Virus record (IMG/VR): IMGVR_UViG_3300035670_000026
Span: 62,001-126,000 of that record
Source: a virus
DNA length: 64,000 bases
Reading direction: 5' to 3' (one strand)
In this document: positions 1 through 20,192 of the stretch, in pieces
How positions within the stretch are numbered: position 1 is the stretch's first letter
Layout of the letters: each line of letters opens with the position of its first letter
Notes under the pieces: model-generated
What the model saw: only the letters and a program-made list of their open reading frames with translations
Databases searched by the model: none
Told to the model about the DNA's origin: nothing
Translations under genes and position numbers: made by a program

Positions 1-2
1 TT

Positions 3-954: not shown

Positions 955-975
955 TAAGGAACCCTAGCTTTTTAA

Positions 976-983
976 TATTTATA
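976..983 (+). promoter_or_regulatory. Putative late promoter box TATTTATA
   Basis: TATTTATA lies 12 bases before the ATG at 996, in the only gap between phoH and the structural genes. The same octamer in the same orientation precedes most structural transcription units here. Promoter function is inferred from position. Confidence 0.5.
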
Positions 984-995
984 TCCAAAAAGCGA

Positions 996-1421
996 ATGGC
1001 AACTCTTACTACACAAATTTACGAAATTTTAACGCTTGATGGAAACGATGTTGGATCATCCCAAATCCAAACTATTAACGGCATAAACTATGTAGATAAT
1101 AGAGTTTTAAGCGTACCTACAGGGTCGGTAACTACTATATTTTCAATGGATGCTACTCCAGGTGCTGGTACTTTTGTAACCAGCAGTATTAAATACATTA
1201 GAGTATCTAATATTAGTACAGTTAATGCCCCAATTCAACTTGTTGTATCCTCTTCAACTGAAGCAATGAGCTATTTTGTAACAACAGGTAGTTCATATAT
1301 GTTATCAACAAGTAAAATGACAGGTAGTGTAGGAGGATTATTATTTGACGATATTAAATCAGTTAAAGTTGAACCTTCTGGTAGTGCAGCAACTTTAGAA
1401 TATTATATAGCAACAACTTAA
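996..1421 (+). CDS. Small putative virion protein, all-beta
   Basis: 141 residues, rich in Ser, Thr, Val and Ile, with alternating hydrophobic stretches typical of beta-sandwich virion proteins. No cysteine, no signal peptide and no recognisable motif. It opens the neck gene run (six bases before the next gene) and has a TATTTATA box in front, so expression with the late structural genes is likely. A decoration, neck or fibre-attachment protein would fit; nothing in the sequence chooses between them. Confidence 0.6.
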   Translation: MATLTTQIYEILTLDGNDVGSSQIQTINGINYVDNRVLSVPTGSVTTIFSMDATPGAGTFVTSSIKYIRVSNISTVNAPIQLVVSSSTEAMSYFVTTGSSYMLSTSKMTGSVGGLLFDDIKSVKVEPSGSAATLEYYIATT

Positions 1422-1427
1422 TAAATT

Positions 1428-2660: not shown

Positions 2661-2661
2661 T

Positions 2662-3183
2662 ATGGCACTATATGGACAAATGAGAGATATTAGTATGTTT
2701 CGATTCATTAATCGTGAATTGATGCAAAATATTATTTCTCAACAAGTAGTATTTTACAAATACAATGTTACTACAACTAAAGTAAACATGTATGGTGAAT
2801 CTGTTGAAGGTAGAAATTTTGCAGATCCGGTAATATTATTTGCTTTAATTGAAACAACAAATTTTGAATATCCTGTAAGTGATTTTGGTGCTGATTTTAA
2901 TTGGCAGGTAACTTACAAATTTTTACGAGATGATTTAGTTGATGCTAATGTTTACCCAGAAATAGGAGATGTAGTTATGTTCCAAAATGGCTACTGGGAA
3001 ATAGATAATGTAAATACAACTCAATTCTTTGTTGGTAAAGATCCAGAATACCCGTATTTAGATGCAGCAGGAGATAACCCATATGAAGAGGATTTAGGAC
3101 AATTTGGATATAGTGTATCCGTAATTTGCACTTGTCACTATGTTCCTTCAGATAGAATTAATATTGAATTATCACGACTATAA
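2662..3183 (+). CDS. 14: Neck protein, gp14-like
   Basis: 173 residues. The pattern VVFYKYNVTTTKVNMYGES, then FADPVILFALIE, DFGADFNWQV, LVDANVYPEIGDVV and YWEIDNV follows the gp14 neck proteins of cyanophage-type T4 relatives (tKvNlYGES, nvYPelGDii, yYEi). gp14 with gp13 closes the filled head and joins the tail. It ends in TAA that overlaps the next ATG, giving tight coupling to the gp15-like gene. Confidence 0.7.
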   Translation: MALYGQMRDISMFRFINRELMQNIISQQVVFYKYNVTTTKVNMYGESVEGRNFADPVILFALIETTNFEYPVSDFGADFNWQVTYKFLRDDLVDANVYPEIGDVVMFQNGYWEIDNVNTTQFFVGKDPEYPYLDAAGDNPYEEDLGQFGYSVSVICTCHYVPSDRINIELSRL

Positions 3184-4136
3184 TGGCTCAAAATAGACTA
3201 AATAAACCAACGCCAAAAACACAACGTGAGATAAGTGTAGAACAACACAAATCAACGTATTCACCCTCGGGTAATCCTAATTATGCGGATCCTGATGTTC
3301 CTGGTATTAATCGTGCATTACAAACATCATTTAAGGGGGATAATGTAAAACCTTTTAGTGTTGGTATTAAAGATATTGATGAAGCTGTATATTACTACTT
3401 TGAAAATGTAATCCAACCCTCAGTAATACAAAATGGATCTCGTTTACCTGTTCCTATTATATATGGTTCTCCTGAAAAATGGAAATCATACCAAAAAGAC
3501 GGGTATTACAGAGACCAAAAAGGTAAAATTATGGCTCCTTTGATTATGTTTAAAAGAGAGTCAATGGAAAAAAATAGGACTATTGGTAATAAATTAGATG
3601 CTAATAATCCTCATAACTATGGAGTTTCTCAGAAAAAATATGATGCTAGAAATTCATATGATAACTTTAAAGTATTAACTAATAGAATTCCTGAAAAGCA
3701 ATTTTATGCTACAGTAATTCCTGATTATGTAACTATAACTTATAGTTGTGCGATATTTACGTATTATGTAGAACAACTAAATAAAATAGTTGAATCTATT
3801 GAATATGCTTCTGATGCTTATTGGGGTGATCCTCAAAGATATAAATTTAAAACAATGATTGATTCGTTTGGTTTTCAAACAGAATTAACTCAAAATGATG
3901 AACGTATTGTAAGAAGTACATTTACTATAAGATTAAATGGATACATAGTACCTGAAATATTACAAAAAGATTTGAACTCAATTAAAAAATTCTCTGATAA
4001 AACTAAAATTATATTTTCAATTGAAGCTTCTTCAATAGATGCTCTATATACTGGCCAAGAAAATGCTAATGGAACAATTACAACCCCAGAAACAATTAAA
4101 GCACTAGAAATTAAGAAAAAAGTGAACGCAATATAA
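3183..4136 (+). CDS. 15: Tail sheath stabiliser / tail completion protein, gp15-like
   Basis: 317 residues. The region RLPVPIIYGSPEKWKSY and the later DYVTITYSCAIFTYYVEQ, plus RYKFKTMIDSFGFQTE, match the general build of T4-like gp15, the terminator that caps the sheath and contacts the neck. It follows the gp14-like gene in the T4 order 13-14-15. The first 60 residues are polar and Pro-rich and look like an extension. It is the last gene before the fibre block; a TATTTATA box follows it. Confidence 0.6.
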   Translation: MAQNRLNKPTPKTQREISVEQHKSTYSPSGNPNYADPDVPGINRALQTSFKGDNVKPFSVGIKDIDEAVYYYFENVIQPSVIQNGSRLPVPIIYGSPEKWKSYQKDGYYRDQKGKIMAPLIMFKRESMEKNRTIGNKLDANNPHNYGVSQKKYDARNSYDNFKVLTNRIPEKQFYATVIPDYVTITYSCAIFTYYVEQLNKIVESIEYASDAYWGDPQRYKFKTMIDSFGFQTELTQNDERIVRSTFTIRLNGYIVPEILQKDLNSIKKFSDKTKIIFSIEASSIDALYTGQENANGTITTPETIKALEIKKKVNAI

Positions 4137-4170: not shown

Positions 4171-7100
4171 ATGGCTCAAGTAAGATTCCTAGACCAAGTT
4201 CCAGTTGGCGTATATAATGTAGATCCTACGGGTACCGGTGCTGGTACCATTGATATATACCAAAATGGTACACTAGTAAGCGCTAGTGTTCCATATATTA
4301 ATATCAGCGGTTCAGCTGAGGTTTTAGGATTTGCACCATTCGGTACAAATAATGGTGTTACAATATACGTTTCTGGAGTAGGATTTCCATTTTCAGGTTC
4401 AGCCGAAATTACAGGATCTTTAGTAATCTCAGGTTCTGAGACTTATCCTATTATAATTCAAACCCTTCCGGTTCAAGATATTGAGTACGTAGTAACGTAC
4501 AACCCAATAACAGGTACTTTAGGATATGTAAATGCTACTTCTGGAACAAGCGGTATTTCAGGAACATCAGGAGCTTCAGGACAATCAGGCACTTCAGGAA
4601 CAAGTGGTACAGCAGGTACTACAGGAACTGCGGGTAACTCAGGTAATTCTCAAACTTCAGGTACAAGCGGTACCTCAGGTACAAATGGTTCAAGTGGTAC
4701 AGAAGGTATCTCAGGAATAAGTGCAACTTCTGGCACTAGTGGTACTAGTGGTTCAACAGGTACTTCAGGAAATAGTGAAAATTCAGGAACTAGTGGAACG
4801 AGTGGTACAAGTGGTACTAATGGTTCTGCTGGTACTTCTGGTATAAGTGAAAATAGTGGTACTTCAGGTACTTCCGGTACAAGTGGAACTAATGGTTCAT
4901 TAGGTACATCAGGAGAAAGCCAAACATCAGGTACTTCAGGTACTTCTGGGACAGCAGGTTCTTCAGGAACTGCGGGTGAATCAGGAAATAGTAAAACATC
5001 AGGAACTAGCGGTACTAGCGGTACTAGCGGTACTAGCGGTACTAGTGGTACAAGTGGTACAAACGGTAGCGCAGGTACAGCTGGTATAAGTGAAACCTCA
5101 GGTACAAGTGGTACCTCAGGAACAAGCGGTACAAATGGTTCTTCAGGAACTGCGGGTGAATCAAGCATAAGTGAAACTTCAGGCACTTCAGGCACTTCAG
5201 GTACCTCAGGAACAGCAGGTTCATCTGGAACCGCTGGTGAATCAGGTATAAGTGAAACCTCAGGTACAAGTGGTACTTCAGGTACTAATGGTAGTGCAGG
5301 TACAGCAGGTGCTTCACAAACAAGTGGTACAAGTGGTACTTCAGGTACCTCAGGTACAAATGGTAGTTCAGGTACTTCAGGAGAAAGTAATGTAAGTGGT
5401 ACTTCAGGAACATCTGGAACCTCAGGTAGTACTGGTACTTCTGGTACTTCAGGTAATGATGGTACTTCTGGCATATCTAGTACTTCAGGTACTAGTGGAA
5501 CTTCAGGTACTAGTGGTACAAGTGGTACAACAGGTACTGCTGGTTTAGATGGATTTGATGGTGTAAGTGGTGCTAGTGGTTCTTCAGGTTCTTCAGGTAC
5601 TAGTGGAACTTCAGGTTCTGTAGGTACAGCAGGTACTTCAGGAGTATCACAAACAGCAGGTACATCTGGTACTTCAGGTACATCTGGTACCAATGGTACA
5701 GCCGGTACATCAGGAAATAGTCAAACTTCAGGTACAAGCGGAACATCAGGTTCTTCAGGTACTTCTGGAGAAGATGGTACAAGTGGTACATCTGGTATTT
5801 CAGCTACAAGTGGAACTTCAGGTACCAACGGTTCAAACGGTACAGCAGGAGCTGCTGGACAATCAGGAGCAAGCGCTACTTCAGGTACTAGTGGAACTTC
5901 AGGTAGTACAGGTACTTCAGGGTTAAGTGGAAATTCAGATTCTTCAGGTACTAGTGGTACATCAGGTACTTCTGGTACATCTGGTACTGCAGGTTCTGCT
6001 GGTACTGCAGGTACAGCAGGAAATAGTGAAACAGCAGGTACATCAGGTACTTCAGGTACAAGCGGAACTAACGGTTCAGCTGGTACATCAGGTAATAGTG
6101 AAACCTCAGGTACTTCAGGAACTAGTGGTACTTCAGGAACAAATGGTTCTGCAGGTACAGCAGGTGCTACTGGACAGTCAGGTGCAAGTGCAACAAGTGG
6201 TACATCAGGAACTAGCGGTTCTACAGGTACTTCTGGTTTAAGTGGAAATAGTGAAACCTCTGGTACAAGTGGTACATCAGGTACTTCTGGTACGAGTGGT
6301 ACAACAGGTTCATCAGGAACCGCTGGTGAGTCAGGTACTAGTGAAACCTCAGGTACTAGCGGTACTAGTGGTACTAGCGGAACAAATGGTTCTTCTGGTA
6401 CAGCTGGTATTTCTGGTAATAGTGAAACTTCAGGTACATCTGGTACTTCAGGTACAAGTGGAACCAACGGTTCAGCAGGTACAGCTGGAGTTGCAGGTCA
6501 ATCAGGTGCAAGCGCTACTTCAGGTACAAGTGGAACAAGTGGTTCTACAGGTACATCAGGTTTAGCAGGAGTTAGTGAAACTTCAGGCACTTCGGGTACA
6601 AGTGGAACTTCAGGTACATCAGGAACAACAGGTTCATCTGGAACAGTTGGTGAATCAGGTACAAGTGGCACTTCAGGTACTTCAGGTACTTCAGGCACTT
6701 CAGGCACTTCAGGCACTTCAGGTACAAACGGTTCATCAGGAACATCAGGCGAATCAGGTACTAGTGCAACTTCAGGTACATCAGGTACAAGCGGAACTAA
6801 TGGTTCATCAGGAACTGCCGGAGCTGCAGGTCAATCAGGTGCAAGTGCAACTAGTGGTACCTCAGGTACTTCAGGTAGTACTGGTACTTCAGGTTTAGCA
6901 GGCGAAAGCAAAACATCAGGTACATCAGGTACTTCAGGTACTTCAGGTACAAACGGTTCATCAGGAACAGCAGGCGAATCAGGAAATAGTGAAACTTCTG
7001 GTACAAGTGGTACTAGTGGTACTAGTGGTACTAGTGGTACAAACGGTTCTTCAGGAACGGCAGGTGCTTCTGGTAATAGTGAAACATCAGGAACAAGTGG

Positions 7101-10100
7101 CACTTCAGGTACTTCAGGTACTAATGGTAGTACGGGTACAGCAGGTGCTGCTGGTCAGTCAGGTGCTAGTGCAACCTCAGGTACAAGTGGAACAAGTGGT
7201 TCTACAGGTACATCAGGTTTAGCAGGTGAAAGTAAAACTTCAGGTACAAGTGGAACTAGCGGTACTAATGGTAGCGCTGGAACAGCCGGTGCTTCTCAAA
7301 CAAGTGGTACTAGCGGTACATCAGGTACTAATGGTAGTGTAGGTACAGCTGGAGTTGCAGGTATTTCTGAAACAAGTGGTACTTCTGGTACAAGCGGTAC
7401 TAATGGTAGTGCTGGAACAACCGGTACTTCTCAAACAAGCGGAACTTCAGGTACTAGTGGTACTAACGGTTCAGCAGGTACTGCTGGAGCCGCTGGACAA
7501 TCAGGAGCTAGTGCAACAAGTGGTACAAGCGGAACAAGTGGTTCTACAGGTACTTCAGGATTAAGTAGCGACTCAGGTTCTGCAGGTACAAGTGGTACTA
7601 GTGGTACTTCCGGAACGAGCGGAACAAATGGTTCTTCTGGTACAGCAGGTGCTTCGGGCAATTCAAGAACTTCAGGAACTAGTGGTACAAGCGGTACAAA
7701 TGGTAGCGCAGGTACTTCTGGTATAAGTGATATATCAGGTACAAGTGGTACTTCAGGCACTTCAGGTACTTCAGGAACAAATGGTTCAAATGGTACAGCA
7801 GGTGCTGCTGGACAATCAGGAGCTAGTGCAACAAGTGGCACTTCAGGCACTTCAGGTTCTACAGGTACTTCAGGATTAGCAGGTGAAAGCAAAACATCAG
7901 GTACTAGCGGTACTTCAGGTACAAATGGTAGTGCAGGTACAGCAGGCGCTTCACAAACAAGTGGAACTTCTGGTACAAGCGGTACAAACGGTAGCGCAGG
8001 TACAGCAGGTGCTGCTGGATTAAGCAGAACATCAGGTACCTCAGGTACAAGCGGAACTAACGGTTCAGCAGGTACTGCCGGTAACTCAGGAAATAGTCAA
8101 ACTTCAGGTACAAGCGGTACCTCAGGAACAAATGGTAGCACGGGTACAGCCGGAGCTGCAGGACAATCAGGTGCAAGTGCTACAAGTGGTACTAGTGGTA
8201 CCTCAGGTAGTACAGGTACTTCAGGTTTAGCAGGCGCTTCTCAAACATCAGGTACAAGTGGTACTTCTGGTACTTCTGGTACTTCAGGCACAAATGGTAG
8301 CGTTGGAACAGCAGGCATTTCAGGTGATAGTAAAACATCAGGTACAAGTGGTACAAGCGGTACTAATGGTTCATCAGGTACTAACGGTAACGCAGGTGTT
8401 TCAGGTTTAAGTTCAACTTCAGGCACTAGCGGAACTTCAGGTTCATCAGGTACCTCAGGTTTAGCACGTACATCAGGTACTAGTTCAACAAGTGGAACTA
8501 GTGGTACAAGTGGAACAAATGGTTCTTCTGGTACAGCAGGTGCTTCAGGAAATAGTCAAACATCTGGAACTTCAGGTACTAGCGGTACAACAGGCAGTGC
8601 AGGTACAGCAGGCCAATCAGGTAATTCTCAAACAAGTGGCACCTCAGGTACAAGCGGTACAAGTGGAACAAATGGTTCTTCTGGTACAGCAGGTGCTGCT
8701 GGATTAAGTAGAACATCCGGTACAAGTGGTACTAGCGGAACTAATGGTTCAAATGGCACTTCAGGAAATGCAGGTACAGCAGGTGCAAGTGCGACTTCAG
8801 GTACAAGTGGTACAAGCGGTACTAATGGTTCATCAGGTACTAACGGTAACGCAGGTGTTTCAGGATTAAGTTCAACTTCAGGCACTAGTGGCACTTCAGG
8901 TTCATCAGGTACCTCAGGTTTAGCCCAAAATTCAGGAACATCAGGCACAAGTGGTACTAGCGGAACAAATGGCTCTGCAGGTACAAACGGTGCCTCAGGA
9001 AATAGTAGAACTTCTGGTACTAGTGGTACTAGTGGTACAGCTGGTACCTCAGGTACAGCAGGAGCTTCAGGAAATAGTCAAACATCAGGTACTAGTGGTA
9101 CAAGTGGCACAGCAGGTTCTGCTGGTACTGCAGGTACAGCAGGTGCTTCAGGTGATAGTAAAACATCAGGTACTAGCGGTACATCAGGAACTAATGGTTC
9201 AGCAGGTACAGCAGGAGCTGCTGGATTAAGTCAGACATCAGGTACTAGTGGTACTAGCGGAACTAATGGCTCAACAGGTACAGCGGGAGTTTCAGGTAAT
9301 AGTAGAACAGCGGGTACATCCGGTACAAGCGGTACAAGTGGTACTAACGGTTCAAACGGAACTTCAGGTAATGCAGGTGTTTCAGGATTAAGCTCTACAA
9401 GTGGCACTTCAGGAACAAGTGGTTCAAGTGGTACTTCAGGTTTAGCTCAAACAGCTGGTTCAAGTTCAGCTTCTCAAACAAGCGGCACCTCAGGTACTAG
9501 TGGTACATCAGGAGCTACTCAAACAGCAGGTTCAAGTTCATCATCACAAACTAGTGGTACAAGCGGTACTTCAGGAACTAATGGTTCATCAGGTACGGCA
9601 GGTGCATCCGGTAATAGTAGAACATCAGGAACATCAGGAACTAGCGGAACAAACGGTTCAGCTGGTACAGCAGGTTCTTCACAAACTTCTGGCACTTCAG
9701 GTACAAGCGGTACAGCTGGTTCAAATGGTACAGCCGGTGTAGCAGGTGCTTCTCAAACAAGTGGTACAAGCGGTACAAGTGGTACAAACGGTAGTGCTGG
9801 TACAGCAGGTGCTTCTGGATTAAGTAGAACATCAGGCACAAGTGGTACTTCAGGTACAAACGGTTCATCAGGTACTAATGGAAACGCAGGTGTTTCAGGA
9901 TTAAGCTCTACAAGTGGCACTTCAGGCACTTCAGGTTCATCAGGTACTTCAGGTTTAGCCCAAAATTCAGGCACTTCAGGTACTTCAGGTACAAGCGGAA
10001 CAAATGGTTCATCTGGTACAAATGGTGCTGCTGGAAACAGCAGAACTTCAGGAACAAGTGGTACTAGCGGTACAGCAGGTTCTGCAGGTACAAATGGTAC

Positions 10101-11877
10101 AGCAGGTGCTTCTGGATTAAGCCGGACATCAGGTACAAGTGGTACTAGTGGTACTAATGGTAGTTCAGGTACTGCCGGTACAGCAGGAGCTTCAGGTAAT
10201 AGTAGAACATCAGGAACATCAGGTACTAGTGGAACAAATGGTTCTTCAGGTACAGCAGGTGTTGCAGGTATATCACAAACTTCAGGAACAAGTGGTACTA
10301 GCGGAACTAATGGTTCAGCAGGTACAGCTGGTAACTCAGGTCAATCAAGTACATCAGGAACTAGTGGTACTTCAGGTACTAATGGTTCAGCAGGTACAAA
10401 CGGTAACGCAGGTGTTTCAGGTTTAAGTTCAACTTCAGGCACTTCAGGAACAAGTGGTTCATCAGGAACTTCAGGTTTAGCTCGTACAGCAGGTTCAAGT
10501 TCAGCTTCTCAAACAAGTGGTACATCAGGTACAAGCGGTACTTCAGGTGCAACACAAACAGCCGGTTCTAGTTCTGCGTCACAAACTAGCGGAACAAGTG
10601 GTACTAGCGGAACTTCAGGTTCAACAGGAACTGCAGGACAAGCAGGTGCTTCACGGACCTCAGGTACAAGCGGTACAAGCGGAACTAACGGTTCTTCAGG
10701 TACTAATGGTGCTTCAGGAAATAGTAGAACTTCAGGTACTAGCGGTACAAGTGGTAGTACAGGTACAGGAGGTAATGCAGGTGCATCTCAAACAAGTGGT
10801 ACTAGTGGAACAAATGGTTCTTCTGGTACAAATGGAGCTTCAGGTAATAGTAGAACTTCAGGTACAAGCGGTACTTCAGGTACTAATGGTTCAGCAGGTA
10901 CAAACGGTAACGCAGGTGTTTCAGGTTTAAGTTCAACTTCAGGCACTTCAGGAACAAGTGGTTCAAGTGGTACCTCAGGTTTAGCACGTACTTCAGGAAC
11001 AAGTGGTACTAGTGGTACAGCAGGTTCTTCAGGTACAAATGGTGCCTCAGGAAATAGTAGAACATCAGGCACAAGTGGTACTTCAGGTACAAGTGGTTCA
11101 TTAGGTACTTCAGGTAACGCTGGAGGTAGTGGTGTAAGTAATACTTCAGGTACAAGTGGTACCTCAGGTTCAAGTGGTACTGGTGGTGCATCAGGTGCAA
11201 GTAGAACATCTGGTACTTCAGGTACTAGTGGTACAAGCGGTATTTCAGGTAATGTTGGTACAGCTGGTACTTACGTGTCTATAATCGCAGGAAATGGTTT
11301 AACTGGAGGTGGTCAATTAACTACAGATAGAACATTAGATGTAGGAGCAGGTATTGGTATAACAGTTAATGCAAATGATGTTGCTTTAGCATTAGTATCA
11401 AATAGCCCCCCAGAATTATTATATTGGGATGGTTCTCAATTTATAGAATTTACAAGTGGTCCTTTAAGTGCTGGTCCTAATTTCTTAGATGGTAACGGAC
11501 TAATCGATTTAAATAATTTCAATAACTTCTCAGCTAATAGTAAATCGTTTGATATTGTTCACCCAACAAAAGGCGAACCTTGGAGATTAAGATATGGTGT
11601 TTTAGAAGGTCCTGAACATGGTGTTTACTTTAGAGGTTATACAACTGAAAAAGTAATCGAATTACCTGATTACTGGACTGGATTAGTACACGATAATAGC
11701 TACACAGTACAATTAACTCCTGTAGGGAATTGTATGCACTACGTAGTAGAAATTAAAGATAATAAAGTACACATTGATTCAGCTTGTGGAGAAGTAACAT
11801 GTTATTACTTGATTCAAGCAGAAAGAAAAGATGTTGAAAAAGTACTTCTCGAATATAAAAGAGATACAAAAGGATAA
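4171..11877 (+). CDS. Giant collagen-like (Gly-X-Y) Thr/Ser-rich fibre protein
   Basis: 2568 residues. Residues 1 to about 120 are a non-repetitive beta-type head. About 120-2365 is an uninterrupted Gly-X-Y array built from GTS, GTN, GSS, GSA, GTA, GAS and similar triplets, almost without Pro. Every 5-8 triplets one Gly is replaced by Q, E, K, R, A, S or D (for example NSETSGTSG, NSRTSGTSG), defining modules. The C-terminal 200 residues begin with GNGLTGGGQLTTDRTL, a common phage-fibre element, then KSFDIVHPTKGEPWRLRYG and YFRGYTTEKVIELPDYWTG, a tip/chaperone-like domain seen in cyanophage and T4-like tail fibres. It is thus probably a trimeric virion fibre with a very long flexible shaft. 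It lies between neck and sheath genes, followed by a second repeat fibre and sugar-transfer genes. Whether it binds host, glycan or mucus is not shown by sequence. Confidence 0.85.
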   Translation: MAQVRFLDQVPVGVYNVDPTGTGAGTIDIYQNGTLVSASVPYINISGSAEVLGFAPFGTNNGVTIYVSGVGFPFSGSAEITGSLVISGSETYPIIIQTLPVQDIEYVVTYNPITGTLGYVNATSGTSGISGTSGASGQSGTSGTSGTAGTTGTAGNSGNSQTSGTSGTSGTNGSSGTEGISGISATSGTSGTSGSTGTSGNSENSGTSGTSGTSGTNGSAGTSGISENSGTSGTSGTSGTNGSLGTSGESQTSGTSGTSGTAGSSGTAGESGNSKTSGTSGTSGTSGTSGTSGTSGTNGSAGTAGISETSGTSGTSGTSGTNGSSGTAGESSISETSGTSGTSGTSGTAGSSGTAGESGISETSGTSGTSGTNGSAGTAGASQTSGTSGTSGTSGTNGSSGTSGESNVSGTSGTSGTSGSTGTSGTSGNDGTSGISSTSGTSGTSGTSGTSGTTGTAGLDGFDGVSGASGSSGSSGTSGTSGSVGTAGTSGVSQTAGTSGTSGTSGTNGTAGTSGNSQTSGTSGTSGSSGTSGEDGTSGTSGISATSGTSGTNGSNGTAGAAGQSGASATSGTSGTSGSTGTSGLSGNSDSSGTSGTSGTSGTSGTAGSAGTAGTAGNSETAGTSGTSGTSGTNGSAGTSGNSETSGTSGTSGTSGTNGSAGTAGATGQSGASATSGTSGTSGSTGTSGLSGNSETSGTSGTSGTSGTSGTTGSSGTAGESGTSETSGTSGTSGTSGTNGSSGTAGISGNSETSGTSGTSGTSGTNGSAGTAGVAGQSGASATSGTSGTSGSTGTSGLAGVSETSGTSGTSGTSGTSGTTGSSGTVGESGTSGTSGTSGTSGTSGTSGTSGTNGSSGTSGESGTSATSGTSGTSGTNGSSGTAGAAGQSGASATSGTSGTSGSTGTSGLAGESKTSGTSGTSGTSGTNGSSGTAGESGNSETSGTSGTSGTSGTSGTNGSSGTAGASGNSETSGTSGTSGTSGTNGSTGTAGAAGQSGASATSGTSGTSGSTGTSGLAGESKTSGTSGTSGTNGSAGTAGASQTSGTSGTSGTNGSVGTAGVAGISETSGTSGTSGTNGSAGTTGTSQTSGTSGTSGTNGSAGTAGAAGQSGASATSGTSGTSGSTGTSGLSSDSGSAGTSGTSGTSGTSGTNGSSGTAGASGNSRTSGTSGTSGTNGSAGTSGISDISGTSGTSGTSGTSGTNGSNGTAGAAGQSGASATSGTSGTSGSTGTSGLAGESKTSGTSGTSGTNGSAGTAGASQTSGTSGTSGTNGSAGTAGAAGLSRTSGTSGTSGTNGSAGTAGNSGNSQTSGTSGTSGTNGSTGTAGAAGQSGASATSGTSGTSGSTGTSGLAGASQTSGTSGTSGTSGTSGTNGSVGTAGISGDSKTSGTSGTSGTNGSSGTNGNAGVSGLSSTSGTSGTSGSSGTSGLARTSGTSSTSGTSGTSGTNGSSGTAGASGNSQTSGTSGTSGTTGSAGTAGQSGNSQTSGTSGTSGTSGTNGSSGTAGAAGLSRTSGTSGTSGTNGSNGTSGNAGTAGASATSGTSGTSGTNGSSGTNGNAGVSGLSSTSGTSGTSGSSGTSGLAQNSGTSGTSGTSGTNGSAGTNGASGNSRTSGTSGTSGTAGTSGTAGASGNSQTSGTSGTSGTAGSAGTAGTAGASGDSKTSGTSGTSGTNGSAGTAGAAGLSQTSGTSGTSGTNGSTGTAGVSGNSRTAGTSGTSGTSGTNGSNGTSGNAGVSGLSSTSGTSGTSGSSGTSGLAQTAGSSSASQTSGTSGTSGTSGATQTAGSSSSSQTSGTSGTSGTNGSSGTAGASGNSRTSGTSGTSGTNGSAGTAGSSQTSGTSGTSGTAGSNGTAGVAGASQTSGTSGTSGTNGSAGTAGASGLSRTSGTSGTSGTNGSSGTNGNAGVSGLSSTSGTSGTSGSSGTSGLAQNSGTSGTSGTSGTNGSSGTNGAAGNSRTSGTSGTSGTAGSAGTNGTAGASGLSRTSGTSGTSGTNGSSGTAGTAGASGNSRTSGTSGTSGTNGSSGTAGVAGISQTSGTSGTSGTNGSAGTAGNSGQSSTSGTSGTSGTNGSAGTNGNAGVSGLSSTSGTSGTSGSSGTSGLARTAGSSSASQTSGTSGTSGTSGATQTAGSSSASQTSGTSGTSGTSGSTGTAGQAGASRTSGTSGTSGTNGSSGTNGASGNSRTSGTSGTSGSTGTGGNAGASQTSGTSGTNGSSGTNGASGNSRTSGTSGTSGTNGSAGTNGNAGVSGLSSTSGTSGTSGSSGTSGLARTSGTSGTSGTAGSSGTNGASGNSRTSGTSGTSGTSGSLGTSGNAGGSGVSNTSGTSGTSGSSGTGGASGASRTSGTSGTSGTSGISGNVGTAGTYVSIIAGNGLTGGGQLTTDRTLDVGAGIGITVNANDVALALVSNSPPELLYWDGSQFIEFTSGPLSAGPNFLDGNGLIDLNNFNNFSANSKSFDIVHPTKGEPWRLRYGVLEGPEHGVYFRGYTTEKVIELPDYWTGLVHDNSYTVQLTPVGNCMHYVVEIKDNKVHIDSACGEVTCYYLIQAERKDVEKVLLEYKRDTKG
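4530..11265 (+). repeat. Coding tandem repeat array (Gly-X-Y modules), fibre 1
   Basis: About 6.7 kb of 9-nt-periodic coding repeat (GGN ACN TCN/AGY). The peptide repeats are strict, but codons are mixed: GGT/GGA/GGC, ACT/ACA/ACC, and TCA/TCT/AGT/AGC all alternate. Exact DNA identity is therefore mostly short. Exceptions are local runs such as 5005-5040 (four copies of ACTAGCGGT) and longer near-identical blocks around 8375, 8835, 9880, 10395 and 10900 that encode GNAGVSGLSSTSG. Confidence 0.9.
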
Positions 11878-11879
11878 AA

Positions 11880-11887
11880 TATTTATA
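11880..11887 (+). promoter_or_regulatory. Putative late promoter box TATTTATA
   Basis: The octamer sits in the 22-base gap between the two giant fibre genes, 12 bases before the ATG of the second. Confidence 0.5.
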
Positions 11888-11899
11888 TAAAAACATTAA

Positions 11900-14800
11900 A
11901 TGGCTAAAAATGTAACCATAATACCAGGTTCGGGTTCGTTAGAATTTACAGATTCTAATGGCAAGTCAATTAAAATGGTTCTTACCGGATCATTAAATGA
12001 CACTTTAATGTTTGTAAGTGGTAGTGTTCCTATTATGGAAATAAATCCCACTAATGGTTTGGATACAAATAAACCTCCTAAATTTAATGAGGTACCAGAA
12101 GACAATAATTTACCAAATTACCTTGTATACAACGTAAATAATGGGTCTATAGGTTATAGATCAATAGCAAATGGTTCATCTGGTACAGCAGGTACTACAG
12201 GCACTAGTGGACCAAGTAGAACATCAGGCACATCAGGCACATCAGGAACAAACGGTTCTGCTGGTACAAATGGAGCATCAGGAGCAAGCCGTACTTCAGG
12301 TACATCAGGAACAAGTGGTACAGCAGGTAGTGCGGGTACTAGTGGTGCTGCACGGACAGCAGGTTCAAGCTCAGCATCACAAACTTCAGGTACAAGTGGT
12401 ACAAGCGGTACTTCAGGAGCTACTCAAAACGCTGGTTCTAGTTCTGCATCACGGACTTCAGGTACATCCGGTACTAGTGGAACAAATGGTTCTACAGGTA
12501 CAAATGGAGCCGCAGGTGCTTCAGGTACTTCTAGAACCTCAGGTACTAGTGGTACAAATGGTAGTGCTGGTACAAATGGTAATGCCGGTGTCTCAGGGGC
12601 TAGTTCAACCTCAGGTACTTCAGGGACTAGTGGTTCCTCAGGCACTTCAGGTTTAGCACAGACCGCAGGTTCAAGCTCAAACAGCCGGACTTCAGGTACA
12701 AGTGGTACAAGCGGTACTTCAGGTGCTGCACGGAATGCTGGTACAAGCTCTGCATCTCAAACCTCAGGAACCTCAGGTACAAGCGGTACAAATGGTAGTA
12801 TAGGTACAGGAGGTGCAGCTGGAGCATCAGGACAATCACGGACTTCTGGTACAAGCGGAACTTCAGGTACAGCAGGTAGCGCAGGTACTTCAGGTGCTTC
12901 ACGTACTGCCGGTTCAAGCTCATCTTCACAAACCTCAGGAACTAGTGGTACAAGTGGTACCTCAGGAGCAACCCAATCTGCAGGTTCAAGCTCAGCATCA
13001 CAAACTTCAGGTACAAGCGGCACAAGCGGTACTAATGGTAGTGCTGGTACAAACGGAATAGCAGGAGCATCAGGTGTAAGCCGAACTTCAGGAACGTCAG
13101 GAACAAATGGCTCAAATGGTACTTCAGGTGCTAATGGGGCTTCAGGAAATAGTAGAACCTCAGGAACTAGTGGTACAAGCGGTACTAATGGTTCATCAGG
13201 TACAAATGGTAACGCAGGTGTTTCAGGAGTTTCTCCAACCTCAGGTACAAGTGGAACTAGTGGTTCTTCAGGAACAAGTGGTTTAGCACAGACCGCAGGT
13301 TCAAGCTCAAACAGCCGGACTTCAGGTACAAGTGGTACCTCAGGTACATCAGGAGCTGCACGGAATGCAGGTTCAAGTTCTGCAAGCTTTACTTCAGGTA
13401 CAAGTGGTACCTCAGGAACAAATGGTAGTGCAGGTACAGGAGGTGCAGCTGGAGCATCAGGACAATCACGAACTTCTGGTACTTCAGGAACAAACGGTTC
13501 AGCAGGTACAAACGGAGCTTCAGGAGCTTCACGAACTTCAGGCACTAGTGGTACTTCAGGTACAGCAGGTAGCGCAGGTACTTCAGGTGCTGCACGGACA
13601 GCAGGTTCAAGTTCATCATCTCAAACCTCAGGTACAACAGGTACAAGTGGTACCTCAGGAGCAACCCAATCTGCAGGTTCAAGTTCTGCATCACGGACTT
13701 CAGGTACTTCCGGTACCTCAGGTACAAATGGTTCAGCTGGTACTAATGGCAACGCCGGTGCTTCAGGCGTAAGCCGGACTTCAGGTACTTCAGGTACAAA
13801 TGGTTCAAGTGGTACTTCAGGAGCAAATGGTGCCTCTGGAGTATCAAGAACTTCCGGAACTAGTGGTACTAATGGCTCTTCAGGTACAAGTGGTAATGCT
13901 GGAGCTTCAGGAGTTGCTTCAACTTCAGGCACAAGTGGTACTTCAGGTTCTTCAGGTACTTCAGGTTTAGCACGAACAGCAGGACAAAGTACCTCATCTC
14001 AAACCTCAGGTACAAGTGGTACAAATGGTTCAAGTGGTGCTGGTAGAACAGCTGGTACAAGTTCAGCATCACAAACTTCAGGTACAAGCGGCACAAGCGG
14101 TACTTCAGGTGCTGTACAAACAGCAGGTTCAAGCTCAAACAGTCGGACTTCAGGTACAACAGGTACTTCAGGAACATCAGGTGCAAACCAAAATGCTGGT
14201 TCAAGCTCAGCATCACGGACTTCAGGTACATCAGGTACTTCAGGTACAAATGGTAGTTCGGGTACTTCAGGTATTTCAGGTGCTGCTGGTGTAAGTGGAG
14301 CAAGCCAAACCTCAGGTACAACAGGTACAAGTGGTACCTCAGGAGCAACCCAATCTGCAGGTTCAAGTTCTGCATCACGGACTTCAGGAACAAGTGGCAC
14401 TTCAGGAACGTCAGGAGCTACACGGACATCAGGTTCAAGTTCATTATCACAAACCTCAGGTACAAGTGGTACAAATGGTTCAAGTGGTGCTGGTAGAACA
14501 GCTGGTACAAGTACCGCCTCTCAAACTAGTGGTACAAGTGGTACAAGTGGTACAGGAGGTGCAACTACAAACGCAGGTGCTAGTTCAGCATCACGGACTT
14601 CAGGCACAAGTGGTACTAGCGGTACTTCTGGACAAGGACGGAGTGCAGGTACAAGTACAGCAAGTTTTACCTCAGGCACATCAGGTACAAGTGGTTCAAC
14701 AGGTGCTGCACGTACTGCAGGACAAAGTACAGCATCACAAACCTCAGGTACTTCAGGTTCAAGTGGAACATCAGGTGCGGCCACAGTCGCAGGTTCAAGT

Positions 14801-15328
14801 TCAAACAGCCGAACTTCAGGTACAACAGGTACTTCAGGAACATCAGGTGCTGCTAGAACAGCTGGACAAAGTTCAGCAAGCCGGACTTCAGGAACCAATG
14901 GTACATCAGGTACTTCAGGTGCTGCAAGAACTTCAGGTACAAGTTCAGCTTCTGGAACTTCAGGAACAAGTGGCGTATCAGGTACCTCAGGTTTATCATT
15001 TAATGGTACTAGTGGTATTAGTGGTGGTGTATTTACTAACCAACCAGATTATTTAGTTAAAACTACAGGAACAACTACAATACAAAGTGTATCATTTTTA
15101 TCAGTTTCAGGTGCTACTTTAAATGTAACAGGTACTGTTGCTACTAGTTTTTTACAAGTAGATAATGCAGGTGGGTTTTTTAATTTTCAACCCCCAGGTG
15201 GTCCTAACGGAGTAGATCAAGTTTATACAAATATAAACCCAAATTTTGTATTAGGTGAACCAGATGTTTGGTTGATAGTAAACGTAAATGGAATTGATTA
15301 TGTATTTCCGGGATATGCAGCTCCGTAA
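11900..15328 (+). CDS. Second collagen-like (Gly-X-Y) fibre protein
   Basis: 1142 residues. A short head (1 to about 92) shares with fibre 1 the pattern YN-x3-G-x2-GY just before the repeats start. The Gly-X-Y array spans about 93-1035. Its modules differ from fibre 1: AGSSSASQTSG, GAARTAGSSS and ASRTSGTSG dominate, the substituted Gly is mostly R or Q, and acidic residues are nearly absent. The C-terminal 100 residues end in LGEPDVWLIVNVNGIDYVFPGY, a compact element like those closing other phage fibre or whisker proteins. It probably forms a separate shorter fibre or a distal partner of fibre 1. It is the last gene before the glycosyltransferase cassette. Confidence 0.8.
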   Translation: MAKNVTIIPGSGSLEFTDSNGKSIKMVLTGSLNDTLMFVSGSVPIMEINPTNGLDTNKPPKFNEVPEDNNLPNYLVYNVNNGSIGYRSIANGSSGTAGTTGTSGPSRTSGTSGTSGTNGSAGTNGASGASRTSGTSGTSGTAGSAGTSGAARTAGSSSASQTSGTSGTSGTSGATQNAGSSSASRTSGTSGTSGTNGSTGTNGAAGASGTSRTSGTSGTNGSAGTNGNAGVSGASSTSGTSGTSGSSGTSGLAQTAGSSSNSRTSGTSGTSGTSGAARNAGTSSASQTSGTSGTSGTNGSIGTGGAAGASGQSRTSGTSGTSGTAGSAGTSGASRTAGSSSSSQTSGTSGTSGTSGATQSAGSSSASQTSGTSGTSGTNGSAGTNGIAGASGVSRTSGTSGTNGSNGTSGANGASGNSRTSGTSGTSGTNGSSGTNGNAGVSGVSPTSGTSGTSGSSGTSGLAQTAGSSSNSRTSGTSGTSGTSGAARNAGSSSASFTSGTSGTSGTNGSAGTGGAAGASGQSRTSGTSGTNGSAGTNGASGASRTSGTSGTSGTAGSAGTSGAARTAGSSSSSQTSGTTGTSGTSGATQSAGSSSASRTSGTSGTSGTNGSAGTNGNAGASGVSRTSGTSGTNGSSGTSGANGASGVSRTSGTSGTNGSSGTSGNAGASGVASTSGTSGTSGSSGTSGLARTAGQSTSSQTSGTSGTNGSSGAGRTAGTSSASQTSGTSGTSGTSGAVQTAGSSSNSRTSGTTGTSGTSGANQNAGSSSASRTSGTSGTSGTNGSSGTSGISGAAGVSGASQTSGTTGTSGTSGATQSAGSSSASRTSGTSGTSGTSGATRTSGSSSLSQTSGTSGTNGSSGAGRTAGTSTASQTSGTSGTSGTGGATTNAGASSASRTSGTSGTSGTSGQGRSAGTSTASFTSGTSGTSGSTGAARTAGQSTASQTSGTSGSSGTSGAATVAGSSSNSRTSGTTGTSGTSGAARTAGQSSASRTSGTNGTSGTSGAARTSGTSSASGTSGTSGVSGTSGLSFNGTSGISGGVFTNQPDYLVKTTGTTTIQSVSFLSVSGATLNVTGTVATSFLQVDNAGGFFNFQPPGGPNGVDQVYTNINPNFVLGEPDVWLIVNVNGIDYVFPGYAAP
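12165..15005 (+). repeat. Coding tandem repeat array (Gly-X-Y modules), fibre 2
   Basis: About 2.8 kb of the same 9-nt-periodic coding repeat. Longer units recur here, such as a block encoding AQTAGSSSNSRTSG (near 12657 and 13288) and one encoding AGSSSASRTSG. CGG arginine codons are notably frequent at the substituted-Gly position, unlike the rest of the window, where AGA/CGT dominate. Confidence 0.85.
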
Positions 15329-15381: not shown

Positions 15382-17373
15382 ATGAAAAAATTGTTATATA
15401 TTGCTCCACATTTATCTACAGGTGGACTACCTCAATATTTAACTAAAAAAATTGAATTACTTAAAGATGAATTCGACATCTACCTTGTAGAATGGGCAGA
15501 TGTTACGGGTGGTGTTTTAGTAGTAACACGAAATAAAATTCTTAAATTAGTTAAACCTGATAATTTTTTTACATTAGGTGAAAATAAAATAGAATTAATT
15601 GATATAATTAATCGTGTTCAACCCGATATTGTTCATACTGAAGAAATTCCTGAGTTTTATATGGATTTTGATGTAGCATCTAAATTATATAAAACAGACC
15701 GCAAATATATTATTGTAGAAACCTCACACGATTCATCATTTGATACAACCCAGAAAAAATTTTACCCAGATAAATTTATGTTTGTATCAAATTGGCAAAT
15801 TGAACAATATAAAGATATTGATATTCCACGCGTATTAGTCGAATATCCTATCGAATATATTGAACGCCCTAACCGCGAAGAGGCACTGCGTAAATTACAA
15901 TTAGACCCCGCTAAAAAACACATTTTACACGTTGGGTTATATACCTCTCGCAAAAATCAAGCTGAATTTTTTGAATATGCTCGTTCAATGCCTGAATATG
16001 AATTTCATAGTTTAGGTAATAGAGCTGATAATTTTAAATGGTATTGGGAACCATTATCTAATGATACTCCTCCAAATTTAACCTGGTGGAATGAACGCAC
16101 AGATGTAGATGCTTTTTATCAAGCAATGGATTTATTTTTATTTACATCTCGTGGTTCAGCAAATGATAAAGAAACAATGCCTTTAGTTATTCGTGAAGCA
16201 ATTTCATACCAAACTCCAGTTTTGATTTATAATTTAGGTGTTTATCAAAATTATTTTGATAAATTTAAAGGAGTAAAATATCTTGAATTTGATAATTTTG
16301 AAAAAAATTGTGAATTAATTAAAGAAGTTGTAGAAACAAAAGAAACAATCGATATTGAACAAGAAGCAATTATTATTTCTACATATCCTATTCAACAAAG
16401 TGTAATAGATTCTACAAAAGAATGCATTGAATCTTTTAAACAAACAGGAAGAAAAATTATATTAACTTCTCACGTTCCTATTCCTGAAGAATTACAAGAA
16501 TTAGTTGATTATTGTGTTTATGATAAAAATAATTTATTAACTAAACACGATTTTTATTATCATTGCTGGGTTGATTATGGACATTTTAAAGTAAATACAA
16601 TTTTACAAGGTGAAGACAATGATGTTTATCATGGTCCTGCTGTTTATACAAATTATTATAACGCAGCTTCATTAGCAAAAAATATAGGAACTAAAAAATT
16701 ATTTTTTATTAATTACGACTATATCCTTACTAACCCAGAATTTATAAATGAAATTTCTTTTAAATTAAATAAGAAAAAAGCATTTGTTGATGAAAGAAAA
16801 TATTCAGAGGGTGAAGTAAGTAGTACTTTCTTTATAGGTATTCAAACAGATTTATTCTTTAAAACTCACGAATTTATTTCTACAGCTGCTGGATATGATA
16901 ATTTAAAACATAAAGTAGGTAGTTTATCTAATGGTTATGAAAATATATTCTATTTTGCTTTACAACCTTTTAGAAATCAAATTCATATAGAATCAGCTGA
17001 AAATTGGGATAAATTAATTAGTGAAAATTTTAAACACAATAATTTTTCTCGTATAGAATATACTACTGTTTTACCAACTAATGTTGAAAATCATTTTGCT
17101 ATTTACTATCAAAATTCAAATGAAGTAGATAGTAGAAATTTAGTTGTAAGCGCTATAGAAGAAGGACAAGAAATTTTTAATGAAACTATTAACATTACTA
17201 GTAAATTTGCTTGGTATAGACTTCATCAAATCAATGATAAAGAACTTATAATTAATTTTGAGTTTTATGATGCTCATAATAATAAGTTTTTAAGTAAAAA
17301 AACTATTGTTGTAAATAAAGATTACATTGATAATAAATTACAAACAAACGGACTTTTAGAAAAAGTATTATGA
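15382..17373 (+). CDS. GT4-type glycosyltransferase with long C-terminal extension
   Basis: 663 residues. It starts MKKLLYIAPHLSTGGLPQYL, the N-terminal strand and glycine loop of GT-B glycosyltransferases. ILHVGLYTSRKNQAEFF and DLFLFTSRGSANDKETMPLVIREAISY (donor-binding region, EAIS in place of EAMA) lie at about 175-290. Residues beyond about 330 form an extra domain of unknown function, possibly a second glycosyltransferase-like fold. It heads the cassette 15382-20192 behind its own promoter, right after two Ser/Thr-rich fibres, so transfer of sugar to the fibres is a reasonable inference. The next gene overlaps by 4 bases. Confidence 0.75.
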   Translation: MKKLLYIAPHLSTGGLPQYLTKKIELLKDEFDIYLVEWADVTGGVLVVTRNKILKLVKPDNFFTLGENKIELIDIINRVQPDIVHTEEIPEFYMDFDVASKLYKTDRKYIIVETSHDSSFDTTQKKFYPDKFMFVSNWQIEQYKDIDIPRVLVEYPIEYIERPNREEALRKLQLDPAKKHILHVGLYTSRKNQAEFFEYARSMPEYEFHSLGNRADNFKWYWEPLSNDTPPNLTWWNERTDVDAFYQAMDLFLFTSRGSANDKETMPLVIREAISYQTPVLIYNLGVYQNYFDKFKGVKYLEFDNFEKNCELIKEVVETKETIDIEQEAIIISTYPIQQSVIDSTKECIESFKQTGRKIILTSHVPIPEELQELVDYCVYDKNNLLTKHDFYYHCWVDYGHFKVNTILQGEDNDVYHGPAVYTNYYNAASLAKNIGTKKLFFINYDYILTNPEFINEISFKLNKKKAFVDERKYSEGEVSSTFFIGIQTDLFFKTHEFISTAAGYDNLKHKVGSLSNGYENIFYFALQPFRNQIHIESAENWDKLISENFKHNNFSRIEYTTVLPTNVENHFAIYYQNSNEVDSRNLVVSAIEEGQEIFNETINITSKFAWYRLHQINDKELIINFEFYDAHNNKFLSKKTIVVNKDYIDNKLQTNGLLEKVL

Positions 17374-18317
17374 AAATATGCCAAGTAAATCCAGGTTGTG
17401 GTATTCCTATTCCTCCTCCAGCATGGGGAGCAATTGAAAAAATTGTATGGGAATTTATGTGCAATCTAAAAAAATTAGGACACGAAGTAGATTTAAAATG
17501 GGCCAATGAAGTACAACCAGGTGAATATGATGTTGTGATGGTTCACGTTGCTAATTTAGCAATTGAATTAGCTAACAGAGGTATTCCCTATGTATTTCAA
17601 CATCACGACCACCATGCATATCATTACGGAAAAGATTCATTTATTTATAAAGAAAATAGAGAAGCAATGGAACGCTCTGTTTTTTCTTTAGTTCCTGCTC
17701 GTTATTTAGTTGAATATTTTGATTTACCTAATGTGTATTATTTTTCACACGGGGCGGATACAAAAAGTTTTTATCCAAATCAAACACCTCCATTAATGCA
17801 TAATTTATTAATGGTTGCAAATAATGGTTTAGGTGGTTATGGAGCATATGATAGAAAAGGATTTGGATTAGGAGTCCAAATAGCAATGTCTCGTAATTTA
17901 CCTATTACAATTGCTGGTCCTAAAAATAATGAAAAATGGCTTAAAGATAATCCTTGGGTATTAGGTTATCCTAAATTAACAATGGCTTGGGATATTCCAA
18001 ATGAGGAATTAAGACAACTTTATACATCACATACAATATTTTTACATCCAAGTGAATTAGAAGCTGGACATCCTAATTTAACCTTACTAGAGGCAGCAGC
18101 TTGTGGTTTACCTATTTTAGGATGGATTGAGATGGAAACTACATTTCATGGATTATGGAGAGCACCTCGTGATTTAAACTTGCTTCTTAAAGGATTAGAT
18201 GTTATTATTAATGAATATGGAGACTATAGACAACGTTCACTTAATACAGCAAAAGAATTATCATGGTTAAATCGCTCAAAAGAATTAATAGAATTATTTA
18301 AAAAACATGCGCACTAA
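17370..18317 (+). CDS. Glycosyltransferase family 4-like
   Basis: 315 residues. The N-terminal MKICQVNPGCGIPIPPPAWGAIEKIVWEF is a GT-B start like those of polysaccharide glycosyltransferases. The C-terminal half has HTIFLHPSELEAGHPNLTLLEAAACGLPILG, the donor-binding E-x7-E type motif of family 4. Start ATG 17370 overlaps the upstream stop (ATGA), so it is translationally coupled. Predicted retaining, nucleotide-sugar dependent; the sugar cannot be read from sequence. Confidence 0.85.
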   Translation: MKICQVNPGCGIPIPPPAWGAIEKIVWEFMCNLKKLGHEVDLKWANEVQPGEYDVVMVHVANLAIELANRGIPYVFQHHDHHAYHYGKDSFIYKENREAMERSVFSLVPARYLVEYFDLPNVYYFSHGADTKSFYPNQTPPLMHNLLMVANNGLGGYGAYDRKGFGLGVQIAMSRNLPITIAGPKNNEKWLKDNPWVLGYPKLTMAWDIPNEELRQLYTSHTIFLHPSELEAGHPNLTLLEAAACGLPILGWIEMETTFHGLWRAPRDLNLLLKGLDVIINEYGDYRQRSLNTAKELSWLNRSKELIELFKKHAH

Positions 18318-18993
18318 ATTTTATACAAAAAACGACCAAATAATTGATATTTCAACTTGGGATACATCCTTAAGCCAAAATGAAATGGGAGATAAATATG
18401 GTTGGGAAGGATCTATGGCTTTTGGAAATTTAATTCACGATGAATTAAATCAATGGGGTCCTGGTATGCAATATGGAGATATTTATCTTGATTTAGGAGC
18501 AAATATTGGTATGTCTGCTCTTAGAGCAGAATCAAAAGGTTGCTCAAAAATATACTGTGTAGAACCAGACCCAGGAGTATTTGAAGCTTTAAATAAAAAT
18601 AAAAACTATAATTGGATTGTTGATAATATAGCTATTGGTTCCGAAAGAGGATACATTGACATTCCAAAATGGCCTAACTGGTGGGATACTCAACCTATCC
18701 AATGTATTACTTTAGATGAATTTTTTGCAAAACATAATCTTACAAAAGTAGATTACATGAAAGTTGATATTGAAGGACATGAAAAATATGTTTTTAATAA
18801 TGTTAGTCAAATTACATGGGATAAAATTAATAAAATATTTTTTGAATTTCATGAAGATGTAGATACATTAAGCACTGAACAACGAAATGAAGAAAGAATA
18901 AAATTCTGCCAATTCTATTCAGATAAAGGTTTTAATAATCATCATGTCGATTTAGGATACTATCAAAGTTTTATTTATTTTTGGAAATCATGA
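18307..18993 (+). CDS. FkbM-family methyltransferase
   Basis: 228 residues. YLDLGANIGMSALRA is the SAM-binding motif I, IYCVEPDPGVFEAL is the acidic loop, and DYMKVDIEGHEKYVF is the FkbM signature. FkbM enzymes O-methylate sugars or small molecules. It sits between two sugar-transfer genes, overlapping the previous one by 11 bases and the next by 4, so it probably caps or tailors the glycan made by this cassette. Confidence 0.85.
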   Translation: MRTKFYTKNDQIIDISTWDTSLSQNEMGDKYGWEGSMAFGNLIHDELNQWGPGMQYGDIYLDLGANIGMSALRAESKGCSKIYCVEPDPGVFEALNKNKNYNWIVDNIAIGSERGYIDIPKWPNWWDTQPIQCITLDEFFAKHNLTKVDYMKVDIEGHEKYVFNNVSQITWDKINKIFFEFHEDVDTLSTEQRNEERIKFCQFYSDKGFNNHHVDLGYYQSFIYFWKS

Positions 18994-20192
18994 AAGAAGT
19001 TTTAATAAACGAATATAACAATACTGAAATTTTAAGGATATCTCATAGAGAACCTGAAAATACTTTTAATATTAATTTTTTAGATGGACCTTTTGTAGAA
19101 GTTTTAGGTCCTTTACAAAAAGAATATCTTATTAAATTTGTTAATACTAAAACTAATCGTGTTTTATTCGAGAATACTATTACTAATAATATGTGGACTC
19201 GTTCTAATATAAAATACTTAGTTAAATGGCGTATTGAAATTTATGATAAAAAAACAGGTGAAAAAATTATTGAACATACATTTAATCCTCAAGGAAAACG
19301 AGTTTATATTCATTTAGATTCATCTGCTGTAGGTGATACATTAGCATGGTTTCCTCTTATTGAAGAATTTAGAAAAGAAAATAATTGTGAAGTAGCTTGT
19401 TCAACTTTTCATAATGAATGGTTTGAAAAAAACTACCCTAAATTAGAATTTATAAAACCAGGTACTGAAGTACGTGATTTATATGCTATGTTTACTATTG
19501 GGTGGTTTTATGATAATAAAAAAGTTGTATTTGATAGAACACCAATTGATTTTAAAAAATATCCTTTACAACAAACCGCTACAGAAATTTTAGGATTAAA
19601 ATATAAAGAAGTTAAACCTCAATTAGTAACTCCTGAACGAAAAACAGATATTGAAGGAAAATATGTTGTAATTGCTCCCCATGCTTCAGCACATGCTAAG
19701 TATTGGATGTATCCAGGAGGATGGCAAACAGTTATTGATTATTTAAACGAAAAAGGATATAAAGTAGCAATGATTACTGGTGAACCTTTAAATGATGATT
19801 GGCACGATTCAAAACTTGGAGGTACATTAACTGGAGTAATCGATAAAACAGGATTTCACATTGATTTAGAAGATAGAATGATAGACATTCGTGATGCTTC
19901 TGCTTTTATTGGTTTAGGAAGTGGATTAAGTTGGTTATCTTGGGCATTAAATACTCCTACAGTTTTAATTTCCGGATTTAGTTATCCATATACTGAATTT
20001 CAGGATTGTGAAAGAATTTACCCTAAAGATCCTAAAACATGTAGAGGATGTTTTAACCGCCATTGGTTAAACCCAGGAGATTGGGAATGGTGTCCTGATC
20101 ATAAAAATACTCCTCGTCAATTTGAATGTACAAAAGTTATTGAACCTTCTCAAATAATAGAATCTCTTAATAAACTTCTTAATATTTATTAA
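18990..20192 (+). CDS. Heptosyltransferase-like protein of the BAHT (AAH/TibC) type
   Basis: 400 residues from ATG 18990 (the upstream in-frame TTG at 18981 is less likely). KRVYIHLDSSAVGDTLAWFP and VVIAPHASAHAKYWMYPGGW are the GT9 heptosyltransferase hallmarks (glycine loop and donor-binding region). The C-terminal cysteines C351, C354, C368 and C380 match the four-cysteine iron site of the autotransporter heptosyltransferases AAH and TibC, which glycosylate protein Ser residues. Residues 1-100 form a separate N-terminal domain. By family knowledge this is a protein-O-heptosyltransferase rather than an LPS enzyme. Its position after giant Ser/Thr fibres makes them the obvious candidate substrate; that is inference. 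Confidence 0.7.
   Translation: MKEVLINEYNNTEILRISHREPENTFNINFLDGPFVEVLGPLQKEYLIKFVNTKTNRVLFENTITNNMWTRSNIKYLVKWRIEIYDKKTGEKIIEHTFNPQGKRVYIHLDSSAVGDTLAWFPLIEEFRKENNCEVACSTFHNEWFEKNYPKLEFIKPGTEVRDLYAMFTIGWFYDNKKVVFDRTPIDFKKYPLQQTATEILGLKYKEVKPQLVTPERKTDIEGKYVVIAPHASAHAKYWMYPGGWQTVIDYLNEKGYKVAMITGEPLNDDWHDSKLGGTLTGVIDKTGFHIDLEDRMIDIRDASAFIGLGSGLSWLSWALNTPTVLISGFSYPYTEFQDCERIYPKDPKTCRGCFNRHWLNPGDWEWCPDHKNTPRQFECTKVIEPSQIIESLNKLLNIY

Follow-up and report, generated by a model that had tools for sequence, protein, structure and literature searches.

A stretch of 64,000 nt (the window, bases 62001-126000 of a 149.8-kb virus record) encodes two adjacent giant collagen-like proteins followed by a set of glycosylation genes. 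The order is neck protein, collagen A, collagen B, GT1, GT2, FkbM methyltransferase, heptosyltransferase, sheath and tail tube. In related loci the cassette is gained and lost together with the collagen shaft while the neck and sheath genes stay. An earlier note on this DNA described the fibres correctly in outline and overlooked the cassette, which is the important part of the locus and the strongest functional clue. As judged from the genes, the best explanation, to which we assign a probability of roughly 0.6, is that A and B are trimeric virion fibres of a T4-like phage, whereby serines at the Y position would be heptosylated in place of a stabilisation by proline or hydroxyproline.

The Gly-X-Y shafts and their glycine replacements

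Upstream of the fibres lie PhoH (start at 220), a 141-aa protein (996), a head-tail adaptor-like protein (1428), a conserved protein (2662) and a conserved neck-module protein (3183..4136, + strand), which has no family match in Pfam or PHROG and for which the label 'gp15' denotes position only. The tail sheath (20495..22225, + strand; phrog_23, 2e-75) shows 54% identity to the sheath of Flavobacterium phage immuto and is followed by the tail tube (start at 22265). Two large proteins past the tail tube region (26769-28733 and 29034-31883) have no Pfam or PHROG match. Rfam gave no match near the collagen and cassette region. The locus belongs to a group of uncultured aquatic phages, probably with Flavobacteria-like hosts. 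A contig with the same cassette was found inside a Winogradskyella MAG, which agrees with Flavobacteriia, a binning accident being possible.

Collagen fibre A (4171..11877, + strand; 2568 aa) and collagen fibre B (11900..15328, + strand; 1142 aa) match the Pfam family Collagen (PF01391) with E-values of 5e-204 and 1e-47, and the two ORFs lie exactly where the earlier note had placed them. The shaft of A (4552..11262, + strand; residues 128-2364) consists of 745 Gly-X-Y triplets with 96 replaced glycines, that of B (12173..15007, + strand; residues 92-1036) of 315 triplets with 83 replaced glycines. Each keeps a single register: 87% (A) and 74% (B) of the triplets have glycine in frame, and only 3 and 7 glycines, respectively, are out of frame. 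The X position is mainly Thr (64% in A, 56% in B), the Y position mainly Ser (69% and 67%). The claim that the fibres are without proline is correct for A (0 in 745 triplets) and strictly speaking wrong for B (2 in 315 triplets). With glycine at every third residue both proteins score above the curated cut-off of PF01391, yet X and Y are not rich in Pro (Hyp). Hence we speak of a collagen-like repeat and not of a classical collagen.

A chance or low-complexity artefact was ruled out, as the spacing in A is far above that of shuffles and the repeat is found on many independent contigs. Coding in antisense or in an alternative frame was rejected as well, since the open frames on the reverse strand (PEVPLVPEVP...) merely mirror the repeat. 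In the deposited annotation of Microcystis phage Mel-JY01 (PP395634.1, L208) antisense CDS run across most of a collagen ORF (region 2-3049); the mirrored repeat leaves the opposite strand open as well, which misleads gene callers.

At the collagen rise of 0.286 nm per residue, extended shafts of ~640 nm (A) and ~270 nm (B) are computed. A fully extended fibre of 640 nm would be several-fold above a typical T4-like virion, which counts against the best explanation.

Scans of IMG/VR anchored on the sheath (downstream), the neck protein (upstream) and GT1 led to about 190 loci. The same kind of protein occurs on many of these related contigs, almost always proline-free, which bears out the view of giant phage fibre proteins with proline-free collagen-type repeats. 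Collagen genes of a proline-containing GPQGPQG type are present in the same kind of phage, too (L116, 19760-20950; L183, 1225-6784); on the L116 contig this second gene comes after the proline-free one.

In A, glycine is replaced in 12.9% of the triplets (96/745) by Q (27), R (18), S (15), E (14), A (12), K (6), N (2) or D (2). The mean spacing is 7.7 triplets, and 64% of the spacings fall at 7-9 triplets vs 15% in shuffles (p<0.0002). An interval of 5-8 triplets, as given before, is therefore too short for A, where 6-10 is typical. Moreover, the x-T-S frame, said to be used always, is common and not universal (76 of 96 sites in A, 38 of 83 in B). The replaced sites in B amount to 26% of the triplets overall and include a second, denser module (GAT QTA GSS SAS QTS) in which ~3/5 of the triplets have no Gly. 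Charged residues are segregated in A (Mann-Whitney p=1.5e-8): acidic ones predominate in the N-terminal half and basic ones in the C-terminal half. In B they are exclusively basic. Only 50 of 96 replacement codons in A and 33 of 83 in B are one base away from a Gly codon. Since this is about half or fewer, the replacements are mostly not fresh point losses of Gly, and an origin by recent point mutation was rejected.

Replacement statistics were extended to 50 non-redundant collagen-like proteins. Among their 2447 replaced glycines the spacings peak sharply at exactly 8 triplets (979 cases), Ser immediately precedes the replaced position in about 90%, and Gly mostly gives way to Ala, Gln, Arg, Asn or Ser. 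Several relatives are nearly free of replacements (0 in 612 triplets in L140, 3% in L116, 0.6% in L194), hence the module is variable and not essential. As a defining or required hinge the proposed periodic module is not supported, because L140 and L116 share the N-terminal domain. A hinge is an optional reading. Where replacements occur, in many relatives usually one every 8 triplets, they may represent optional in-register interruptions which add flexibility or set the local charge.

Alternatively, the regular replacement could be functionless: an old duplicated unit of 72 bp, multiplied by unequal exchange, would simply contain it as a fixed element. The repeats are old and diverged at the DNA level, with tandem arrays of 63/72/81 bp that mostly match at 65-80%, and self-identity peaks at 72 bp (DNA) or 24 aa (protein). 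The favoured replacing residue also differs per protein (N in L139, A in L107, E in L094), and some relatives have no replacements at all. We nevertheless regard this alternative as less likely than not, as the replacing residues in A and B are nearly all small, polar or charged, A has a charge gradient and the 8-triplet spacing recurs across diverged proteins.

Fibre ends and the linked glycosylation cassette

The N-terminal domain of A (MAQVRFLDQVPVG...; 4171..4551, + strand), the presumed virion anchor, is found with 60-91% identity at 24 related loci; its AlphaFold2 model was unusable (pLDDT 42). The C-terminal domain of A (11263..11874, + strand) is common to cyanophage hypothetical proteins and a tail-fibre-like protein of Flavobacterium phage immuto (tblastn, mostly 42-51% identity over the last ~105 residues). 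It has no Pfam match, and as query in IMG/VR the tip retrieved no relatives. For the C-terminal tip domain of B (15008..15325, + strand) a homologous stretch (49-72%) is present in L069, L081, L107 and L172. Related collagen fibres end in Peptidase_S74 chaperone domains, which belong to trimeric fibres. As in tail fibres, a conserved anchor is combined with a variable shaft and tip and, in relatives, with an intramolecular chaperone.

The shaft is subject to natural exchange. In L128 and L129, whose neck protein is 81% and whose sheath is 76-77% identical, the same N-terminal anchor is followed by YadA-head repeats, in L042 by another shaft repeat. All three loci are without any cassette gene. 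Since the exchange of the shaft goes along with the absence of the cassette, these loci are the strongest argument that it is the collagen shaft which the cassette serves.

The cassette starts with GT1 (15382..17373, + strand), a GT4-type glycosyltransferase (Glycos_transf_1, 6.5e-10) fused to a GT-A-fold domain. This C-terminal half was modelled by AlphaFold2 (pLDDT 92.5; best Z 14.6 to GT-A enzymes); a collagen galactosyltransferase, as proposed by Foldseek matches, was rejected because only the GT-A fold is shared. GT2 (17370..18317, + strand; Pfam, 5e-8) is a GT4-type glycosyltransferase, too. The subsequent FkbM-family methyltransferase (18307..18993, + strand; TIGR01444, 5.6e-22) is missing in many relatives. 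Some relatives carry an extra GT2-family enzyme and a 2OG-Fe(II) oxygenase; in L024 a glycosyltransferase/methyltransferase, a DUF6445 protein and the oxygenase are located directly upstream of GT1 (482-2986).

The last gene encodes a protein O-heptosyltransferase of the TibC/Aah type (18981..20192, + strand; 403 aa; TIGR04414, 4e-87), which probably starts with the ATG at 18990. It scores 292.6 bits vs an equivalog cut-off of 200 and matches the TibC structure PDB 4rap (8e-55). Residues important in TibC are the catalytic Asp110, the sugar-binding Lys230, Trp305, Arg286 and Thr226 and the cysteines of the iron finger (PMC4358343). The window enzyme retains Asp110 (as its residue 119), Lys230, Trp305 and the four-Cys iron finger (Cys339/342/358/370), and so do 45/45 distinct phage homologues; Arg286 is kept in 39/45 and Thr226 changed to Ser in 39/45. 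The autotransporter acceptor repeat TIGR04415 was found in 0 of 11 records searched, with a positive E. coli control. Hence the enzyme, although resembling BAHT by sequence and active site, probably has a different acceptor. To our knowledge the known BAHT acceptors are autotransporter adhesins and not collagen, which counts against the best explanation.

A search for gmhA in the phages was negative, and the RfaE-like kinase (domain I) and nucleotidyltransferase (domain II) score below their cut-offs; the domain I-like gene is missing from immuto. ADP-heptose is thus likely to be supplied mainly by the host. Parts of a heptose-type activation route may be encoded by the phage, and we make no claim of a phage heptose pathway. 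Beyond the window, a phage nucleotide-sugar cluster (G000, 126000-146000; L218) comprises a DegT aminotransferase, RmlC, several NAD-dependent sugar epimerases, an RfaE-domain-I-like kinase, a glycosyltransferase and a methyltransferase.

Co-occurrence was counted on sheath-anchored loci, made non-redundant, for which 5 kb or more of upstream sequence was available. Truncated contigs set aside, collagen and cassette were both present in 29/29 and both absent in 25/25 loci with no mixed case; without the loci fetched by GT1, 15 had both and 25 had neither. The positives L032, L058 and L170, and also L078, were assigned from later evidence on the same contig. L015, L020, L024, L176, L192 and L193 were left out, having a cassette without collagen in the available stretch; mostly the contig starts shortly before GT1. 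L078 and L083 were rejected as exceptions, since in the former the collagen sits beyond the flank first covered and in the latter the match is located upstream of the neck anchor. In the best tree of the sheath, collagen and cassette each change 7 times, together, and 3/3 independent pairs on supported branches agree. Three such events do not suffice for significance, so that the tree test is consistent with the linkage, not statistically decisive alone.

Outside the group the heptosyltransferase is rare, with a homologue in only 4 of 50,697 phage records. The isolate Mel-JY01, with a named host, has a 1016-aa collagen ORF near its heptosyltransferase homologue, which is a fusion protein. The 735-kb megaphage LR756501 (LR756501.1, W03) encodes collagen ORFs of up to 3488 aa; at 103000-123000 and 400000-419500 several giant Gly-Thr-Ser collagens are accompanied by homologues of GT1, GT2 and the heptosyltransferase. 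LR756503 is a second megaphage record that agrees with LR756501, in which the collagens were searched, in length and match position. In LR756504 a heptosyltransferase and no collagen was detected, which counts against the best explanation. Searches of the open-access literature turned up no study that describes a heptosyltransferase together with collagen in a phage.

A proposed heptosylated shaft and its alternatives

According to the best explanation, A and B would form long trimeric fibres. Their N-terminal domain presumably attaches to the tail or neck, the C-terminal tip is exchangeable, and the shaft is of collagen type, built from Gly-Thr-Ser instead of Gly-Pro-Hyp. During infection, the TibC-type enzyme of the phage would, inside the cell, put heptose on serines of the shaft, most of them at Y, while GT1, GT2 and the methyltransferase may extend or cap the glycan or modify other sites. 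The sugar layer would replace the stabilising and hydrating role of proline and hydroxyproline and result in a hydrophilic fibre extending to the host or to surface glycans. Heptose at Y fits because TibC glycosylates Ser and not Thr (PMC4358343) and about two thirds of the Y positions are Ser. Glycosylation of threonine is a recognised means of collagen stabilisation (PMC3368898), and bacterial collagens, BclA among them, are believed to gain stability from glycosylation (PMC8968730). That a natural collagen fully without proline is stabilised by heptose on Y-Ser, set by a phage relative of an adhesin heptosyltransferase, falls in our view somewhat short of even odds.

Gly-Thr-Ser without proline should form an intrinsically weak triple helix, as expected from host-guest peptides, and 26% of the B triplets being without Gly is hard on such a helix and counts against the best explanation. 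Both points would suit a shaft that is a glycosylated, extended non-triple-helical brush (mucin-like) or a polyglycine-II bundle, the three-residue repeat being kept for another reason. We consider this unlikely. A register over 745 triplets with 3 out-of-frame Gly is needed neither by a disordered brush nor by a turned bundle; since it is kept across all replacements, a continuous three-residue helix is favoured over a bundle with turns. Moreover, the PF01391 score is very high, and the YadA-type shafts in sister fibres and S74 ends in related collagens are both known from trimers.

Even less probable is a cassette that acts on host LPS or on a different virion protein and leaves the collagen unglycosylated: for other phage glycosyltransferases encoded near tail-fibre genes an alteration of host LPS is assumed (PMC7029224), GT1 and GT2 are generic GT4 enzymes and further nucleotide-sugar genes exist elsewhere in the genome, but TIGR04414 is a family of protein O-heptosyltransferases, and the cassette comes and goes with the shaft, not with the constant neck and sheath genes.

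If heptosylation of the shaft is true, it would be a new answer to collagen stability and a new acceptor class for the heptosyltransferase family, suggesting that BAHT enzymes take non-autotransporter substrates. Whether sugar instead of proline can hold a triple helix becomes testable, as a short module and one enzyme make a compact genetic system for a trial in E. coli. The locus further suggests a glycosylated collagen coat or whisker in a group of uncultured aquatic phages, and long hydroxyproline-free collagens are of interest as materials.

Comparison with known systems

BclA is a spore surface protein that keeps its proline and has other sugars and enzymes. As an exosporium collagen of Bacillus it is glycosylated, and the sugar is thought to aid stability (PMC8968730), whereas A and B have Thr at X, Ser at Y and a heptosyltransferase alongside. 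The autotransporter heptosyltransferases TibC/Aah (PMC4358343) belong to the same family with conserved catalytic and iron-finger residues; in contrast, the window enzyme is phage-encoded and linked to collagen instead of an autotransporter, the TIGR04415 acceptor not being found. Mycobacteriophages have glycosylated virion proteins as well (Freeman et al. 2023, cited in PMC12619734); the targets there are C-termini of capsid and tail-tube proteins, not a collagen fibre. Similar in architecture are the E. coli prophage collagens EPclA-D, phage fibres with a Gly-X-Y shaft between N- and C-terminal fibre domains. As far as the accessible text of PMC3368898 goes, they are trimers, their shafts are unusually high in proline and far shorter than those of A and B, the recombinant protein is unglycosylated and a glycosyltransferase operon is not described. 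Taken together, A and B would represent a new variant of the phage collagen fibre, with a strong mechanistic hypothesis drawn from sequence comparison.
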